In this document: positions 17,270-26,270 of the stretch, one piece after another
Numbering within the stretch: the first letter of the stretch is position 1
Layout of the letters: each line of letters opens with the position of its first letter
NCBI GenBank assembly: GCA_944387775.1
Contig: CALXGE010000003.1
Coordinates: forward strand, 1 to 54,189
Direction of reading: 5' to 3'
Length of the DNA: 54,189 bases
From: an uncultured Oscillospiraceae bacterium
GTDB lineage: Bacteria; Bacillota; Clostridia; Oscillospirales; Oscillospiraceae
Program-made: the position numbers and the translations under genes
Notes under the pieces: generated by a model
The model's database searches: none
What the model was told of the DNA's origin: nothing
Seen by the model: the letters and a program-made list of their open reading frames with translations, nothing else

Positions 17270-17833
17270 ATGAGCTGGATCGAACTGTTTCTGATCGGCG
17301 TGGGACTGAGTATGGATGCTTTCGCCGTGTCTATCTGCAAGGGATTGAGCATGAAAAAGCTCCGGTGGCGGCAGGGGCTGCTGGTAGGGGTATTTTTCGG
17401 CGGCTTTCAGGCCATGATGCCCCTGATCGGCTGGGCACTGGGCCGCCAGTTTGAAAAGTATATCACCAGCGTGGACCACTGGATCGCCTTCATTCTGTTG
17501 GGTTATATCGGCGGAAAGATGATCTGGGACGGCTTCCACGGGGAGGATGAGACCTGCCCTTCTGGCTTTGACCTCAAAGAGCTGACCATGATGGCGATCG
17601 CCACCAGCATTGACGCTCTGGCGGTAGGCATCACCTTTGCCTTCCTGCAGGTGGACATTCTGCCTGCCGTGAGTCTTATCGGCCTGACTACCTTCACGAT
17701 CTCTCTGGGAGGCGTGTGGATCGGCCATCGCTTTGGCAGCAAGTATAAAGATAAGGCGACCCTTGCCGGCGGAATCATTCTCTGTCTCATTGGCCTTAAG
17801 ATCCTGCTGGAACACCTCGGTATGTTAGGGTAA
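17270..17833 (+). CDS. mntP: Manganese efflux pump
   Basis: MntP exports Mn2+ and prevents manganese toxicity. The 187-residue protein has six predicted helices and both conserved halves: IELFLIGVGLSMDAFAVSICKGLSMKK at the N-terminus and MMAIATSIDALAVGITFAFL after the central loop. The paired Asp residues in SMDAFA and SIDALA are the metal-site hallmarks of the family. GAGGAGATAG lies upstream of the ATG. Control by the manganese riboswitch immediately upstream supports the function independently of homology. Confidence 0.95.
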   Translation: MSWIELFLIGVGLSMDAFAVSICKGLSMKKLRWRQGLLVGVFFGGFQAMMPLIGWALGRQFEKYITSVDHWIAFILLGYIGGKMIWDGFHGEDETCPSGFDLKELTMMAIATSIDALAVGITFAFLQVDILPAVSLIGLTTFTISLGGVWIGHRFGSKYKDKATLAGGIILCLIGLKILLEHLGMLG

Positions 17834-19471: not shown

Positions 19472-20752
19472 TTATAGGGAGACCAGCCATGCGTCTGCCA
19501 TCTTCTGCAAAGACATCAGAATACCCAGCTTGGCATGCTGCCAGGTGAGGCCGCCCTGGAAGTAAACAGCATAGGGGGGACGGATGGGGCCATCAGCGCT
19601 CAGCTCGATACTGCTGCCCTGGACAAAGGCGCCCGCCGCCATGATGACGGGATCATCGTAGCCGGGCATGTCCCAGGGCTCCGGGGTGGCAAAGCTGTCC
19701 ACCGGAGCTGCAGCCTGGATACCCTTGCAGAAAGCCACCATAGCCTCCCGGCTGCCCAGCTCCACCGCCTGGATAATGTCGCTGCGGACCGCGTCGGCAG
19801 AGGGCACGCACCGGAAGCCCAGCTTCTCATAGAGGTGGGAGGCAAAGACAGCACCCTTCAGGGCTCCGGCAGTGACAGTGGGGGCCAGGAAAAAGCCCTG
19901 GTAGAAGGCCGGGAGAATACCCAGGTTGGCGCCCACCTCCTGGCCCAGGCCAGGGGCGGAGAGGCGGTAGGCGCAGCGGTCCACGCATGTCTTGGTGCCA
20001 CAGATGTAACCGCCGATGGGGGCAAGACCGCCGCCGGGATTCTTGATGAGGCTGCCCACCACCATATCAGCGCCTACGTCGGTGGGTTCAATGGTCTCTA
20101 CAAACTCACCGTAGCAGTTGTCCACCATACAGATCACGTCCGGCTTCACGGACTTACAGAAGGCGATCAGTTCACCAATCTGGGAAACGGTAAAGGAAGG
20201 GCGAGTAGCATAGCCCTTACTGCGCTGGATGGTGATAAGTTTCGTTTTTGAAGTAATGGCGGCACGGATCGCGTCGTAGTCAAAGGAGCCGTCCTCCTTC
20301 AGATCCGCCTGCCGATAGACAACGCCGTACTCCGCCAGGGAGCAGGGGGAAGGGCGAATGCCGATAACCTCCTGTAGGGTGTCATAGGGCAGGCCCACGG
20401 GACTGAGAAGCTCATCTCCAGGGAGAAGGTTAGCACTGAGAGCCACTGTCAGAGCATGGGTACCACAGGTGATCTGAGGACGGACCAGGGCGGCCTCGGT
20501 GTGAAACACCTTGGCATACACCTGCTCCAGCCGCTCACGGCCATCGTCGTTATAGCCATATCCGGTGGTGGCAGCAAAGTGGTTGGCTCCGATCCTGCAA
20601 TCCTGCATAGCCGCCAGGACCTTCGCCTGGTTATATTCTGCCACCGCATCGATCTCCTGGAAACGCTCCTGCAGTCCGGCAGTAATCTGCTCACCAAAAT
20701 TCCATACCTTCTCACTAAGCCCTAATTCACGGTATATCGCAAAGAGATCCAT
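19472..20752 (-). CDS. Methionine gamma-lyase family protein (PLP enzyme, PF06838)
   Basis: A 426-residue PLP-dependent enzyme of the group once called aluminum-resistance proteins. They resemble cystathionine/methionine gamma-lyases, but few have been tested. Features: NHFAATTGYGYNDDGRERLEQVYAKVF, the PLP-phosphate region QITCGTHALTVAL, IQRSKGYATRPSFTV, and GSLIKNPGGGLAPIGGYI containing the likely Schiff-base Lys. Start ATG 20752 has GGAGG upstream; the frame is open 40 codons further but lacks signals. It is divergent from the OLE RNA promoter 134 bases away and co-directional with an EamA transporter. Confidence 0.9.
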   Translation of the reverse strand: MDLFAIYRELGLSEKVWNFGEQITAGLQERFQEIDAVAEYNQAKVLAAMQDCRIGANHFAATTGYGYNDDGRERLEQVYAKVFHTEAALVRPQITCGTHALTVALSANLLPGDELLSPVGLPYDTLQEVIGIRPSPCSLAEYGVVYRQADLKEDGSFDYDAIRAAITSKTKLITIQRSKGYATRPSFTVSQIGELIAFCKSVKPDVICMVDNCYGEFVETIEPTDVGADMVVGSLIKNPGGGLAPIGGYICGTKTCVDRCAYRLSAPGLGQEVGANLGILPAFYQGFFLAPTVTAGALKGAVFASHLYEKLGFRCVPSADAVRSDIIQAVELGSREAMVAFCKGIQAAAPVDSFATPEPWDMPGYDDPVIMAAGAFVQGSSIELSADGPIRPPYAVYFQGGLTWQHAKLGILMSLQKMADAWLVSL

Positions 20753-20885
20753 AAAATGCCTCCAATGATAAAAAATTGCCTGAAAAAGTCTATCATGGAT
20801 GGAGATGGAATGCAAGGGAAACTTATTATGCGCTGTGAAACTATGTAAACAATCTGTAAATATGCAAAACATTTTGCATATTATC

Positions 20886-20914
20886 TTGAATATTCAAACA
20901 AAACATGTTATACT
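20886..20914 (+). promoter_or_regulatory. Promoter of the OLE RNA
   Basis: TTGAAT (20886-20891), exactly 17 bases, TATACT (20909-20914). Transcription would begin near 20921, exactly where the RNA's closing helix begins. Confidence 0.85.
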
Positions 20915-20920
20915 ATATCC

Positions 20921-21569
20921 GCTAGACGACGGCGCAGTATCCTAGTCAGATCTGCCGCTTCTGAAGAAGGGCCTAAAAATCCTTTTAAGGGCACAACTGT
21001 GAAACTCTTGGTGCTTGCTTCTTACGCCCAGTTTGGGGTGGGTGCTGAGAGGAAGCGTGGACCCCCGCGCTTGCGGATCCAGGGCGTTCCCCAATGGCAT
21101 GGGGAAGCCGACCCTGTTTTCGTGGAGACCTGTTTCCGTGCGCAGGCGTACTCCCATTTGTGGTACTTTCGACCTGTGTACGACTCAGGCTGGAACCTGT
21201 ATTGCGGTGCTACCCGGCCTATGAGCCGTGAACGCTGTGTGCAGAGTAGCCTGCCTTGCGTGGGTATGGCGGATAGGGGATCACCCAGACCTCTCCCCGG
21301 CCAGGGAGAGGCTGTGGATCGCTCCTTGAAACCATGGCTGCAAAAGAGGCTAGGAAGCGGTTTGACTGCAGTGGAAAACACCTAGGCTGTCCCATCGGGC
21401 AGAAGAAGGATTGCAGTGCGGACTAAGTGGCAGTCGGGTACCGCGGTGGGCAACGCCGCGGCGAAGCGCTGAAAGGGAAACCACCTGATCGGCAACGAGA
21501 GGCGTGCTTCGGGGAAATCCAACCCGTACCTAAGCCGTAAGATTTACTTTTTCTGCTGCCGCCGTTTAG
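20921..21569 (+). ncRNA. OLE (ornate, large, extremophilic) RNA
   Basis: An approximately 650-base region without a credible reading frame. Its ends pair: CTAGACG-CGGCGCAG near 20922-20936 is complementary, with two small mismatches, to CTGCTGCCGCCGTTTAG at 21553-21569, forming a terminal helix. Internal hairpins include 21290-21297 with 21304-21311 and a CCGCGG pair near 21440-21461. OLE RNAs are about 600 bases, associate with the membrane through OapA and sit next to oapA, dxs, tlyA, nadK, argR and recN. That complete neighbourhood follows here. The assignment rests on size, closing helix, promoter and gene context; I could not run the covariance model. Confidence 0.85.
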
Positions 21570-21583
21570 TGTTTTACCAATTG

Positions 21584-21616
21584 ATATCCGTCCCCCAAAC
21601 GGGGGCGGATATTTTG
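21584..21616 (+). terminator. Terminator after OLE RNA
   Basis: ATATCCG-T-CCCCC pairs with GGGGGCGGATAT (21601-21612) and is followed by TTTT. Probably yields a discrete OLE RNA while allowing some read-through into oapA. Confidence 0.8.
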
Positions 21617-21677
21617 TCCTGACAGGGCATTTCAAGATTTCTGTATATCATTCATAAAGAAAGGCGAGGCGGTATTT

Positions 21678-22301
21678 TTGGACCTGGACCATATAGGGCA
21701 AGAGGACCGAAAGGATAAAGAGAAGAAGCAAGAACCCAGAGAGAAAAAAAGCGAAAAGAAAGAATGGCGCTTCCGCTGGGCGGTACAGGTGTTCTTTATC
21801 TCCGTGGCACTGTCGGCGGTGCTGAGCTTCTGCTCCAGCGAAGCTCTGGAGGGAGCGGAGCTGGGCCTTGCCTTCTGTGTGCTGGCCTTTTTTATTCTGC
21901 TTGGCATCGTATTTGATATCATTGGCGTGGCGGTAACCGCCGCCGATGAGCGGCCCTTTCACTCCATGGCAGCCCGCAAAACGCCGGGAGCCCGGCAGGC
22001 TCTGGCCCTGATTCGCCGGGCCAACAAGGTCTCCAGCTTCTGCAACGATGTTGTGGGCGATATCTGCGGTATCGTCAGCGGCAGTACCGCTGCGGTAATC
22101 GTGCTGCGGGTCCAGGAGGTCCTTCCCGTCCGCACACCCTTGGTAATGGTAGGTGTATCTCTGGGGATCACCGCTCTGGTCTCTGGCCTGACCATCGGCG
22201 GAAAAGCGGTAGGCAAGACCTTTGCTTTGGAGAAGAGCACCGCCGTGCTGCAGCTGGTAGGCCGTATCATGTATGTGTTTTCCAGTCATCGTAAGAGGTG
22301 A
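21678..22301 (+). CDS. oapA: OLE-associated membrane protein A
   Basis: OapA binds OLE RNA and holds it at the membrane; the complex affects tolerance to alcohols, cold and Mg2+ stress in Bacillus halodurans. This 207-residue protein begins with about 33 highly charged residues (Lys/Glu/Arg-rich, plausible RNA contact). Four hydrophobic helices follow near 34-52, 60-83, 120-143 and 153-172. Between helices 2 and 3 is ADERPFHSMAARKTPGARQAL, a polar segment resembling DUF21/CorC-type membrane domains. No ATG fits; TTG at 21678 follows AAGGCGAGGCGG. It ends 5 bases before the dxs start, so the two are coupled. Named from context and topology. Confidence 0.8.
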   Translation: MDLDHIGQEDRKDKEKKQEPREKKSEKKEWRFRWAVQVFFISVALSAVLSFCSSEALEGAELGLAFCVLAFFILLGIVFDIIGVAVTAADERPFHSMAARKTPGARQALALIRRANKVSSFCNDVVGDICGIVSGSTAAVIVLRVQEVLPVRTPLVMVGVSLGITALVSGLTIGGKAVGKTFALEKSTAVLQLVGRIMYVFSSHRKR

Positions 22302-22306
22302 AATAC

Positions 22307-24154
22307 TTGATTCTGGAGCATATTTCGTCCCCAGTGGACGTTAAGAAGTTGGATCGCGCCCAGCTGCCCATCCTTTGTGAGGAACTGCGGCAGTTTCTGG
22401 TGGAGAGTGTCTCGCGGACAGGAGGGCACCTGGCCTCCAACCTGGGGACCGTGGAACTGACGGTAGCGATCCACCGGGTGTTTGACACTGCCCGGGACCG
22501 TCTTGTATTCGATGTAGGGCACCAGTGCTATGTGCATAAGGCGCTTACCGGCCGCAGGGAGCTTTTTTCTACCCTGCGGCAGTTCGGCGGTCTGGGAGGA
22601 TTTCCCCGGCCGGACGAGAGTATCCACGATGCTTTTGTGGCAGGTCATGCCTCTAACAGCGTATCCGTTGCTCTGGGTATGGCCAGGGCCAGAACTCTTT
22701 TGGGAGAGAATTATGCTGTAGCGGCCCTCATTGGCGATGGAGCCCTCACCGGCGGTCTGGCCTACGAGGGGCTCAATGACGCCGGAGACTCCCGGGAGCC
22801 CCTGGTGGTAATTCTCAACGACAACGGCATGTCCATTGACCCCAATGTGGGTGGTATTTCTGCCCACCTCAGCCGACTGCGGCTGCGCCCGGGCTACTTT
22901 GCCTTCAAACGGGGTTACCGAACCCTTCTCAGCCATCTGCCCGGTGGAATGTCTCTCTACCGGTTCAATCACCGGATCAAGACCGCCATCAAAAAAGCCA
23001 TCTATCCCTGTTCTCTCTTTGAGGATATGGGGTTTACCTATCTTGGACCGGTAGACGGCCACAATGTAGAACAGCTGTGCAGCACGCTGTCATGGGCCAA
23101 GGAGATGGACTGCCCGGTGCTGGTCCATGTGCGGACCATAAAAGGCAAAGGATACATTCCCGCGGAACGAAAGCCGGAGCTCTGCCACGGCGTGGCACCT
23201 TTTGATCCACAAGTGGGGATCTCAGAAAGTCCCGGTCAGGATTTTTCTGCCCGTTTTGGCCACATGCTGACAGAGCTGGCCGCCAACAATCCCCGGATCT
23301 GCGCCATCACTGCCGCCATGGGGGAGGGAACAGGCCTATCTGCTTTTGCTCACACCTTCCCTGAGCGCTTTTTTGACGTAGGCATTGCGGAAGGCCATGC
23401 GGTAAGCATGGCTGCTGGTATGGCAAAACAGGGCATGATCCCTGTCTTTGCTGTATACTCCACTTTCCTGCAGAGAAGCTTTGATATGCTGATCCACGAT
23501 GTGGCACTGCAGAAGCTCCACGTCGTGTTGGCGGTTGACCGAGCAGGTCTGGTAGGGGCTGACGGTCCCACGCATCACGGCTGTGAAGACGCTGCTTATC
23601 TTAGCCAGATCCCTGGTATGACTGTTTTGAGCCCCGGTTCCTTTGTTCAGCTGGACAACATGCTGCAGGAGGCCATCCTTATGGACGGGCCTGTAGCAGT
23701 CCGCTATCCCCGAGGTAAGGAAGGCCGTGCCCTGTCTCCCTGGAAAGGGGAGCACGCAGTTGTGCTGCGGGAGGGCTCAGATATCACTCTGGTATCCTAC
23801 GGCGTACTGATCAATGAGCTTTTGGATGCCGCAGAAGCACTGTCGGCGAAGGGTATTTCCGCAGAAGTGATTCAGTATTACCGTATCTCTCCCTTGGATC
23901 CTCACCCGGCACTGGATTCTGTCAAAAAGACCGGTCGGTTGCTGGTATTGGAGGATTGTGTGGAGTGCGGAAGTGTAGGGCAGCGGCTGGCGGCAGCCTT
24001 GTTGCAGGCCGGGATCGCCCCCCGCTCCCTTGTGCTGAAAAATCTAAAAGACCATTTTACTACCCAGGGAACGGTCCCACAGCTCCGAAAAGCGGAGGGC
24101 CTTGACGCTGAGGCGGTAATCAGATCGGTGTGTGAGGTGGTGTGTCATGGGTAA
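22307..24154 (+). CDS. dxs: 1-deoxy-D-xylulose-5-phosphate synthase
   Basis: First enzyme of the MEP isoprenoid pathway, joining pyruvate and glyceraldehyde-3-phosphate with thiamine diphosphate. The 615-residue protein has VGHQCYVHKALTGR with the catalytic-site His, the thiamine-diphosphate motif GDGALTGGLAYEGLNDAG...LNDNGMSI, and the transketolase central domain with VGIAEGHAVSMAAGMA and DRAGLVGADGPTHHG. The start is taken as TTG 22307 (ILEHISSPVDVKKL), matching the usual Dxs N-terminus and lying 6 bases after AAGAGGTG; GTG at 22298 lies inside that site. The enzyme follows oapA, as in other OLE loci. Confidence 0.95.
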   Translation: MILEHISSPVDVKKLDRAQLPILCEELRQFLVESVSRTGGHLASNLGTVELTVAIHRVFDTARDRLVFDVGHQCYVHKALTGRRELFSTLRQFGGLGGFPRPDESIHDAFVAGHASNSVSVALGMARARTLLGENYAVAALIGDGALTGGLAYEGLNDAGDSREPLVVILNDNGMSIDPNVGGISAHLSRLRLRPGYFAFKRGYRTLLSHLPGGMSLYRFNHRIKTAIKKAIYPCSLFEDMGFTYLGPVDGHNVEQLCSTLSWAKEMDCPVLVHVRTIKGKGYIPAERKPELCHGVAPFDPQVGISESPGQDFSARFGHMLTELAANNPRICAITAAMGEGTGLSAFAHTFPERFFDVGIAEGHAVSMAAGMAKQGMIPVFAVYSTFLQRSFDMLIHDVALQKLHVVLAVDRAGLVGADGPTHHGCEDAAYLSQIPGMTVLSPGSFVQLDNMLQEAILMDGPVAVRYPRGKEGRALSPWKGEHAVVLREGSDITLVSYGVLINELLDAAEALSAKGISAEVIQYYRISPLDPHPALDSVKKTGRLLVLEDCVECGSVGQRLAAALLQAGIAPRSLVLKNLKDHFTTQGTVPQLRKAEGLDAEAVIRSVCEVVCHG

Positions 24155-24956: not shown

Positions 24957-25828
24957 AGCGCGTGATCCTGTGCCCCAATCCCTATCGGGACAAGGGCCTT
25001 TCCGCCGCCAAGGAAGCGGATGCGATTCTGCGTCAGATGGGGCTGGAAACTGTGTTCTGCCTGCCTTTCCGACCGGAAGGCGGTGAGCAGCAGTTTGGCG
25101 TAACCTGCAAACCGCTGCAGCAGGAGCTTCGCGGCAGCGATCTCGTCATTGCCTTCGGTGGTGACGGCACCATTCTCCATCTGGCCCGTACTGCCGCCAT
25201 GCGGGGTGTACCTGTGCTGGGCGTAAACCTTGGCAGTCTGGGCTTTATGTCGGATTTGGAACTCAGTGAGCTCCATCTGCTGGAGAATCTGGCCAAGGGA
25301 CGCTTTCACCGGGAAAAGCGAATGATGCTGGATGTGTCTGTCCAGCGTGAGGGACGTGCGGTTTATACCAGCAGCGCTTTGAACGATGCTGTAATCTCCA
25401 AAGGAGCCATGGCCCGTGTGATTCGTCTTCAGGTCATGGCGGGAGATGATCGGCTGGGCGTATTCAGCGGCGACGGCATTGTGGTGGCCACCCCCACCGG
25501 ATCTACCGGCTACTCACTTTCGGCTGGAGGGCCCATCGTAGAACCCACAGCACAGAACTTTGTCATCAGCCCTATCTGTGCTCATACAGTGTTTTCAAGC
25601 TCCTTTGTCCTGTCCGCTGCGGGAACAGTGACCGTCTCTCCCGCAGAGCAAAGCCGCAAGCAGATCTACCTCTCTGTGGATGGTGGGAAGGCCTTTGCCC
25701 TTCGCCAGGGAGACAAGGTGCGGGTATGCCGCTCCCGATATGAAACTGAGCTGCTGCGCCTGACAGACAAGAGCTTATATGAGGTATTGCGAACAAAAAT
25801 GGCAGGAGGAATCGGTAATGAAAAATGA
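24953..25828 (+). CDS. nadK: NAD kinase
   Basis: Phosphorylates NAD to NADP in the cytoplasm. The 291-residue protein contains the kinase signature VIAFGGDGTILHLARTA (GGDGT near residue 70), VLGVNLGSLGFMSDLE, a conserved LNDAVISKG segment, and GDGIVVATPTGSTGYSLSAGGPIV in the C-terminal beta domain. It starts with ATG at 24953 inside the end of tlyA (ATGA overlap) and ends inside argR, so dxs-tlyA-nadK-argR are translationally linked. Confidence 0.96.
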   Translation: MKRVILCPNPYRDKGLSAAKEADAILRQMGLETVFCLPFRPEGGEQQFGVTCKPLQQELRGSDLVIAFGGDGTILHLARTAAMRGVPVLGVNLGSLGFMSDLELSELHLLENLAKGRFHREKRMMLDVSVQREGRAVYTSSALNDAVISKGAMARVIRLQVMAGDDRLGVFSGDGIVVATPTGSTGYSLSAGGPIVEPTAQNFVISPICAHTVFSSSFVLSAAGTVTVSPAEQSRKQIYLSVDGGKAFALRQGDKVRVCRSRYETELLRLTDKSLYEVLRTKMAGGIGNEK

Positions 25829-26270
25829 CCGTCAATCCAGAATCTTGGAGATTATCGAGCGGGAATCCATTGATACGCAGGAGCAGCTCCAGCAGCGTCT
25901 GCAGGAGATGGGGATTACCTGCACCCAGGCTACTATTTCCCGGGACATCAAACAGCTCCATTTGATCAAGGAGCCTATCGGCCAGGGAAAGTACCGCTAT
26001 GCGGTATCTGTACAGCGCAACCGGCTTAATGTGGCGGACAAGCTGCGCACCATTTTCCGGGAGAGCATCATCAGTGTAGACTACGCCCAGAATATTGTTG
26101 TCATCAAAACTATGGCAGGTTTGGCCAACGCTGCCGCCGCCGCTCTGGACAGTATGAGCATTCCCTACATGGTGGGAAGCCTTGCCGGCGACGACACTGC
26201 TATGCTGGTCATGCGGGACACAGAATCCGCCCGCAGCTTTTGTGACGAGATCCACGAGATGCTGAAATAA
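25818..26270 (+). CDS. argR: Arginine repressor ArgR/AhrC
   Basis: Arginine-responsive hexameric DNA-binding regulator of arginine biosynthesis and catabolism. The 150-residue protein has a winged-helix DNA-binding domain (NDRQSRILEIIERESIDTQEQLQQRLQEMGITCTQATISRDIKQL) and the C-terminal arginine-binding/oligomerisation motif GSLAGDDTAML. ATG at 25818 has AGGAGG 8 bases upstream and overlaps the nadK stop. In Bacillus and Clostridia ahrC likewise sits between tlyA/nadK and recN, so the order is ancestral. Confidence 0.96.
   Translation: MKNDRQSRILEIIERESIDTQEQLQQRLQEMGITCTQATISRDIKQLHLIKEPIGQGKYRYAVSVQRNRLNVADKLRTIFRESIISVDYAQNIVVIKTMAGLANAAAAALDSMSIPYMVGSLAGDDTAMLVMRDTESARSFCDEIHEMLK

Follow-up and report, generated by a model that had tools for sequence, protein, structure and literature searches.

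The window, by which is meant the whole 54,189-nucleotide stretch of Oscillospiraceae DNA that was analysed, carries a genuine OLE RNA at positions 20913-21578 with the gene of its partner OapA next to it; in this RNA, and in many of its relatives within the family, the UUAAGR sequence of the junction between P5 and P6 (J5/6) is replaced by a hairpin whose two strands covary. OLE is a large bacterial RNA that acts at the cell membrane and is still unexplained; to our knowledge, it ranks among the largest of the conserved RNAs whose biochemical function has yet to be found. The explanation favoured here, held with good though not complete confidence, is that of an ole-oapA locus in which an OLE RNA of 650 bases would be made from its own promoter, would close its ends in a long helix and would stop at an intrinsic terminator, and in which the hairpin-type RNA is held in one of two alternative kink-turns. 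In this branch, the stable hairpin takes the place of UUAAGR and P6 has probably gained a three-pair base, so that the RNA is probably fixed in the fold made of P6 and kink-turn 1b (J4a/5 with J6/7), and has probably lost the alternative kink-turn 1a (J4a/5 with J5/6) induced by OapC or bS21. By analogy with Halalkalibacterium halodurans, OLE and the CNNM-like OapA would form a ribonucleoprotein of the membrane, with a tuning role in the responses to divalent ions and to stress.

Regarding the identity of the RNA, an Rfam 15 scan of the window returned one match above threshold, OLE (RF01071), which covered all 616 positions of the model with 415.9 bits and an E-value of 7.9e-119, the gathering score being 50; the same covariance search found 0 matches in 14 control genomes. 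The proposal that this noncoding region of about 650 bases is OLE is thereby confirmed. Compared with the RF01071 OLE of H. halodurans, Clostridium acetobutylicum and C. botulinum, the window RNA has the same full length, stems, A-rich P4 loop, L5 and L6 loops, L9.3 GGCC, P13, terminal helix and adjacent oapA, whereas it differs in three points: the J5/6 hairpin in place of UUAAGR, a P6 base that is probably three pairs longer, and a free position 84. The loops that make the contacts of the published dimer (A-rich P4, L5, L6 and L9.3 GGCC) are conserved, as read in the sequence and in the Rfam alignment. The L5 loop reads CGCCCAG in 53 family sequences, whose parsing was itself anchored on it, and is one C shorter in L215 (genome G181) and L222 (G112).

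That this copy is a decaying or non-functional remnant is very improbable: its J5/6 is unusual and its score is below the 504.8 bits of the best plain-type relative, but the whole model aligns, the loops are intact, oapA is open, promoter and terminator are there, and the hairpin itself is under pairing constraint. Less credible still is a translated region; a frame of 128 aa does run from 20999 to 21385, but the hairpin differs in length between relatives by increments indivisible by three, and the conservation is accounted for by RNA structure.

Features of the ole-oapA locus, in window positions
Feature	Position	Strand	Basis
Probable sigma-70-type promoter, TTGAAT-17-TATACT, TG before the -10	20886..20914	+	9/12 consensus positions
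OLE RNA (RF01071), full length	20913..21578	+	Rfam match, model 1-616
Terminal helix, 5' strand	20922..20933	+	pairs with 21558-21569
P4 loop CCTAAAAATCC, A-rich	20972..20982	+	sequence; A-A bridge of published dimer (PMC12286853, available text)
J4a/5 kink-turn strand, N84 C85, 3-nt bulge, G89 A90 A91 (A C TGT GAA)	20996..21003	+	mapping
L5 loop GCCCA	21026..21030	+	sequence; intermolecular contact of published dimer (PMC12286853, PMC12265935, available text)
Extra J5/6 hairpin AAGCGUGG-ACCC-CCGCGCUU, replaces UUAAGR	21053..21072	+	Rfam insertion; -11.4 kcal/mol; covariation
P6 extension, 5' strand GCG (probable)	21073..21075	+	third pair covaries
L6 loop AATGGCAT	21093..21100	+	sequence; pairs with the other monomer's L5 in published dimer (PMC12265935, available text)
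P6 extension, 3' strand CGT (probable)	21121..21123	+	pairs with 21073-21075
J6/7 GGAGACC, other strand of kink-turn 1b	21124..21130	+	sequence comparison
L9.3 GGCC palindrome	21299..21302	+	sequence; self-kissing loop of published dimer (PMC12286853, available text)
P12.2/P13 region (approximate)	21460..21512	+	aligned to Rfam model; published OapB site (PMC12265935, available text)
Terminal helix, 3' strand	21558..21569	+	pairs with 20922-20933
Intrinsic terminator	21583..21615	+	13-pair stem 21583-21613, -22.2 kcal/mol; TTTT 21612-21615
oapA, 207 aa, TTG start	21678..22301	+	identity to relatives beside OLE; weak CNNM match; fold
dxs, GTG start overlapping oapA stop	22298..24154	+	Pfam
tlyA	from 24132		Pfam name
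nadK	from 24953		Pfam name
argR	25779-26270		Pfam; same gene row as OLE
recN	from 26349		Pfam name

The ends of the transcript are predicted from the signals around the match. The original prediction had called the promoter exact; a promoter is probably there, and a box of the form TTGnnn-(15-18)-TAnnnT lies at the OLE 5' end in 16 of 19 relatives (28 loci were taken, 20 had a 5' end that could be read, and the window, one of the 20, is not counted), but with three of the 12 consensus positions unmatched the adjective does not hold. Promoter-like sites numbered 4 in 3 kb, with 1.7 expected. As for the helix said to join the two ends, 11 of 12 pairs form in the window, as counted by eye, and the relatives keep it: over 19 family sequences, window included, the eight pairs nearest the GGC/GCC base (arms chosen by eye, G176 left out) formed on average 6.63 times out of 8, against 5.93 with shuffled 3' arms, and 0 of 2000 shuffles reached the observed pairing; some of the family sequences seem to need a bulge. 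The terminator, also foreseen, is borne out by its long and stable stem; its TTTT is partly within that stem, and the pattern scan, which also gave a shorter stem, is by itself no evidence (2 sites, 2.7 expected in shuffles).

The reading frame 21678-22301 is supported as OapA by its relatives beside OLE, a weak CNNM similarity and its fold. Identity to 22 relatives from named records was 39-79%, the most distant being that of the Paenibacillus locus L167, where OLE was also parsed. The CNNM match in Pfam (E 2.4e-4) is below the Pfam cut-off, and no CBS or CorC/HlyC domain appeared at E 0.1; the AlphaFold model (mean pLDDT 80.9) has long helices at 21-57, 62-88, 115-148 and 154-185, which makes the earlier description as a four-helix protein roughly right, and its first four Foldseek ranks are CNNM/CorC proteins (E 0.009 to 0.16), with matches to MtCorB and CorC. 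A family profile gave E 4.4e-85, a value that is partly circular because the protein of the window is among the rows from which the profile was built. With respect to MpfA and the other CNNM proteins, OapA shares a weak sequence match and a weak fold match to MtCorB/CorC (best E 0.009), but differs in having no CBS or CorC/HlyC match at the threshold above. The genome of the window has, in addition, a separate full MpfA-type CNNM protein of 416 aa (G000:C2:8940-9467, L034).

Downstream, dxs, tlyA, nadK, argR and recN were all named by Pfam, as anticipated, and a scan of 20 relatives, in which each gene was represented by one motif, showed the order oapA, dxs, tlyA, nadK, recN again beside OLE, apart from gaps due to a failing motif or contig; the locus thus has the published OLE-oapA neighbourhood that had been claimed for it. 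A figure legend in the available text of PMC12054373 mentions unpublished evidence of ArgR binding. On the other side of OLE, a divergent gene of the Met_gamma_lyase family occupies 19472-20872 on the minus strand, and is probably also present in G086, while the gene upstream of OLE resembles ispA in several of the other relatives. A gene for the manganese exporter MntP lies at 17270-17833, 3.7 kb upstream of OLE; a functional link was rejected, as mntP was near OLE in the window only, that is in 1 of 21 loci scanned with one motif. In a member of the same genus (G029), a 786-aa lipoprotein frame (L078:10594-12954), resembling by eye an extracellular solute-binding protein, separates OLE from oapA; in the other family genomes of this comparison, the two lie close together.

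The genome of the window (2,175,188 bases in 151 contigs, 84% complete) belongs to an Oscillospiraceae host near Oscillibacter. Within named records, the OapA proteins nearest to its own come from Oscillospiraceae; the 80 relatives among the matches listed include Oscillibacter, Dysosmobacter, Papillibacter, Sporobacter and Agathobaculum. OLE was present in 56 of 200 sampled Oscillospiraceae genomes, this one included, and in 151 of 391 genomes sampled from the class; a GTDB survey, in its available text, counts 2,822 hits in Bacillota and reports OLE in uncultured gut clades (PMC11332333). The original prediction had held a copy in a gut-type host to be noteworthy, and with such frequencies it is no surprise. 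OapA occurred in 57 of the same 200 genomes, namely all those with OLE and, in addition, G185, where the contig stops 163 bases upstream of the OapA match; the 144 genomes that gave no OLE match gave, save G185, no OapA match either, so that the pair seems to have been gained or lost together within the family. In the same survey, OapA accompanies OLE with few exceptions; OapB is present in about 60% and OapC in about 45% (PMC11332333, available text). The OLE copy of G184 was considered as a broken one and this was dropped, since it sits at a contig end.

Turning to J5/6, the Rfam alignment of the window OLE has a 19-base insertion between P5 and P6, which is the hairpin. Among the 56 family copies, 39 are of this hairpin type, window included, and 17 are of the plain type, which has the UUAAGR of the Rfam consensus. 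Among cultured relatives, Oscillibacter sp. ER4 has the hairpin and Papillibacter cinnamivorans lacks it. Of 65 unique hairpin-type sequences, 64 have a stem of four or more pairs in the same register, its first four pairs being imposed by the search; an unconstrained search for J5/6 stems was discarded as a control, because the segments are GC-rich (56 of 65 reach six pairs, but so do 44% of shuffles). The pairing was then assessed on 28 hairpin-type segments, hand-chosen for diversity, with shuffles that leave the relatedness among the sequences in place. In these, paired cells make up 93.2%, compared with 76.9% after shuffling and 25.0-42.2% with slid partners, double-change cells number 38 against 11.9, and the covariation score is 0.584 against 0.270; for each of the three measures, 0 of 500 shuffles were as high. 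Further pair types were also in excess (14 against 10.8, with 4 of 500 shuffles as high), whereas the number of pairs with a double change was unremarkable (5 against 3.8, 114 of 500 as high). RNAalifold on hairpin-type segments returned the same helix unprompted.

Next to the hairpin, the three bases that follow it can pair with the three that precede GGAGACC. The first two of these pairs were imposed by the search pattern and the third served as the test: it is standard in 63 of 64 sequences, with A always facing T and in 0 of 11 cases C (Fisher p 2.2e-6), and this covariation suggests that P6 is probably three pairs longer at its base in the hairpin type.

No J5/6 hairpin was found in other families of the class, that is in 0 of the 56 OLE RNAs parsed from a sample of 70 loci (30 best scoring and 40 taken for long spans or new families; 14 unparsed). 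Their J5/6 reads UUAAGG in 51 and UUAAGA in one, and GUAAGG, GUAAAGA or a shortened form in four; one of the parsed comparison loci, that of G316, belongs to the same order. As far as this sample shows, the hairpin type would be derived. A single origin was considered and set aside, since the OapA tree needs four changes of type, at least three of them on well supported branches, and these may reflect origin, loss or transfer of the locus. Three relatives, L096 (G105), L223 (G111) and L139, have apical insertions of about 80 to 160 bases in the hairpin, and the acceptance of such large loops suggests an exposed site for a purification or imaging tag.

As for the meaning of this replacement, it must be read against two published kink-turns, reported here from the available text of each source. 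In H. halodurans, OapC binds a kink-turn made of J4a/5 and J5/6, in which C85 is essential and pairs with G144, and a construct of nucleotides 83-96 plus 136-147 is enough for binding (PMC9723947); in the cryo-EM structure of C. acetobutylicum OLE, a protein-free kink-turn is formed by J4a/5 with J6/7 (PMC12286853). The two are named 1a and 1b, respectively, covariation is reported for both, and they are regarded as real alternatives (PMC12054373); which of them OapC recognises is disputed (J4a/5 with J5/6 in PMC9723947, J4a/5 with J6/7 in PMC12286853). H. halodurans numbering was inferred for the family by mapping the consensus AUCGAUGAAG to A83-U84-C85-3 nt-GAA, and by this mapping UUAAGR would be one strand of the OapC kink-turn 1a. 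In the window, C85 would correspond to C20997 and its J6/7 partner to G21127. The window RNA has no UUAAGR in J5/6, the hairpin being in its place, and this bears on the OapC switch and not on membership of OLE.

The strands were compared in 101 plain and 71 hairpin sequences (L003, L167, L213 and L334 counted as plain; five of the 56 family loci unparsed). In separate counts, nearly all plain-type sequences (92 of 94) have a standard second outer pair of 1a, 84-145, while the hairpin type has it in 21 of 64, for which shuffles give 22.4. C85 and G89-A90-A91, on the contrary, occur throughout the hairpin type (71 of 71), the search pattern having imposed neither, and J6/7 is GGAGAC or GGAGGC in 70 of 71, a count that is partly imposed by the parsing pattern; the J6/7 row of L150, of the hairpin type, is a mis-hit, and a stricter J6/7 pattern failed in 3 of 53 family sequences, which read GGAGGC. 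With UUAAGR replaced while C85, GAA and the J6/7 strand are kept, kink-turn 1a is probably beyond the reach of hairpin-type RNAs and 1b could still form in them, and this retention alongside the loss of 84-145 is what would be expected if 1b must be kept. It should be noted that 1b seems weakened too, since a pair between position 84 and its 1b partner is possible in only 32 of 71 sequences of the hairpin type, compared with 98 of 101 plain ones, so that the C85-G pair alone is universal; in over half of the hairpin type, a single pair next to the bulge is left in 1b.

The same data bear on whether the hairpin could be a neutral ornament that melts when OapC or bS21 binds, its AAG strand still making 1a and the switch remaining intact. 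Most hairpin-type sequences do keep A-G or A-A-G at the 5' base of the hairpin, as possible A143 and G144, and P6 melts likewise in H. halodurans OLE on protein binding (PMC9723947, available text). Such a reading is nevertheless rather improbable, given that standard pairs at 84-145 do not exceed the shuffle level, that the hairpin, at -11.4 kcal/mol, is kept by compensatory changes, and that P6 seems to have gained pairs that 1a would need opened.

Regarding the protein partners, neither oapB nor oapC (ybxF) was found in the genome of the window, in which no L7Ae protein was detected at all; at 84% completeness, it also misses rpsL and L24 (its one good KOW hit has the size of NusG), which flank these genes in relatives, so that the two absences say nothing on its true content. 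The three other members of the genus that were sampled (G029, G122 and G184) all encode OapB and OapC. In a congener, the ORF just before infA, which is presumably preceded by map, matches the solved OapB 7k9b with E 2.2e-5, and an OapB-like protein is encoded by 37 of 38 OLE genomes that are at least 90% complete. L7Ae-type proteins are of two kinds by their neighbours: YbxF, before rpsL and fusA, which is the published OapC, and YlxQ, before infB.

OapC was called from L7Ae hits (E 0.1 or better) according to the genes around them, and a diverged copy may have escaped. On this basis, it is encoded by 16 of the 17 plain-type genomes and 12 of the 39 hairpin-type genomes (Fisher p 1.8e-5), or by 13 of 13 and 11 of 25, respectively, when completeness is at least 90% (p 8.5e-4). 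These raw counts look strong, but on the OapA tree, with 42 rows counted, they go back to just two changes of OapC, and the independent-pairs test gives no significance (median p 1); the tie between OapC and RNA type, which is therefore unproven, would be suggestive only. Both changes were read from that tree as losses within the hairpin type, the tree itself being blind to gain versus loss, and, if the link is real, one order of events would be the loss of 1a first and that of OapC later. OapC is also found in genomes without OLE (PMC11332333, available text), so its retention is weak evidence of binding.

Hairpin-type genomes without OapC keep C85 and GAA, 14 of them being at least 90% complete, and position 84 has lost dependable pairing with both of its partners, as would be seen if C85, GAA and GGAGAC were kept for tertiary or dimer contacts, in an OLE devoid of any OapC site. 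This is considered unlikely, though it deserves more weight than a melting hairpin: the kink-turn between J4a/5 and J6/7 forms free of protein in C. acetobutylicum (PMC12286853, available text), and the L7Ae paralogue YlxQ, encoded by 21 of 28 OLE genomes without OapC, could bind it.

With respect to what was known, the ole-oapA locus is of a known kind. OLE variants 1 (TANB77) and 2 (RF39), described by Fernando and Breaker in 2024, are also derived and from uncultured gut Bacillota, but in them P7-P9, and in some cases the OapB site too, are lost or shortened, whereas the window RNA keeps both and alters J5/6 (PMC11332333, available text). By the 390-bit threshold of that work, set on its own model, the window OLE would count as full length if the scores are comparable. 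The words hairpin and insertion are absent from the main text of PMC11332333 in its available form; the available texts of PMC12054373, PMC9723947, PMC12265935 and PMC12286853 describe no J5/6 hairpin where they use either word, those mentions concerning P5/P6, constructs, strains, membrane insertion or general terms. Literature searches that joined OLE with kink-turn 1b, with Oscillospiraceae or with Oscillibacter brought up no additional OLE paper among the matches listed. As far as these texts go, the J5/6 hairpin form is undescribed, though a published consensus drawing could show it.

In conclusion, the window RNA has the parts known to be needed for the OLE particle, with its OapC region wired differently; a role in alcohol, cold or metal stress in this host, as first proposed, may apply and is carried over from H. 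halodurans. For the family, it is conceivable, though somewhat short of an even chance, that a large branch of gut Oscillospiraceae has removed the OapC switch and made kink-turn 1b permanent, that some of its lineages then dropped OapC, and that YlxQ or the bare RNA took over. If true, these genomes would form a natural series that separates the two disputed kink-turns without the need for a mutant. In any case, a branch in which J5/6 is naturally replaced makes 1a versus 1b directly testable, and bears on which of the two folds is essential.
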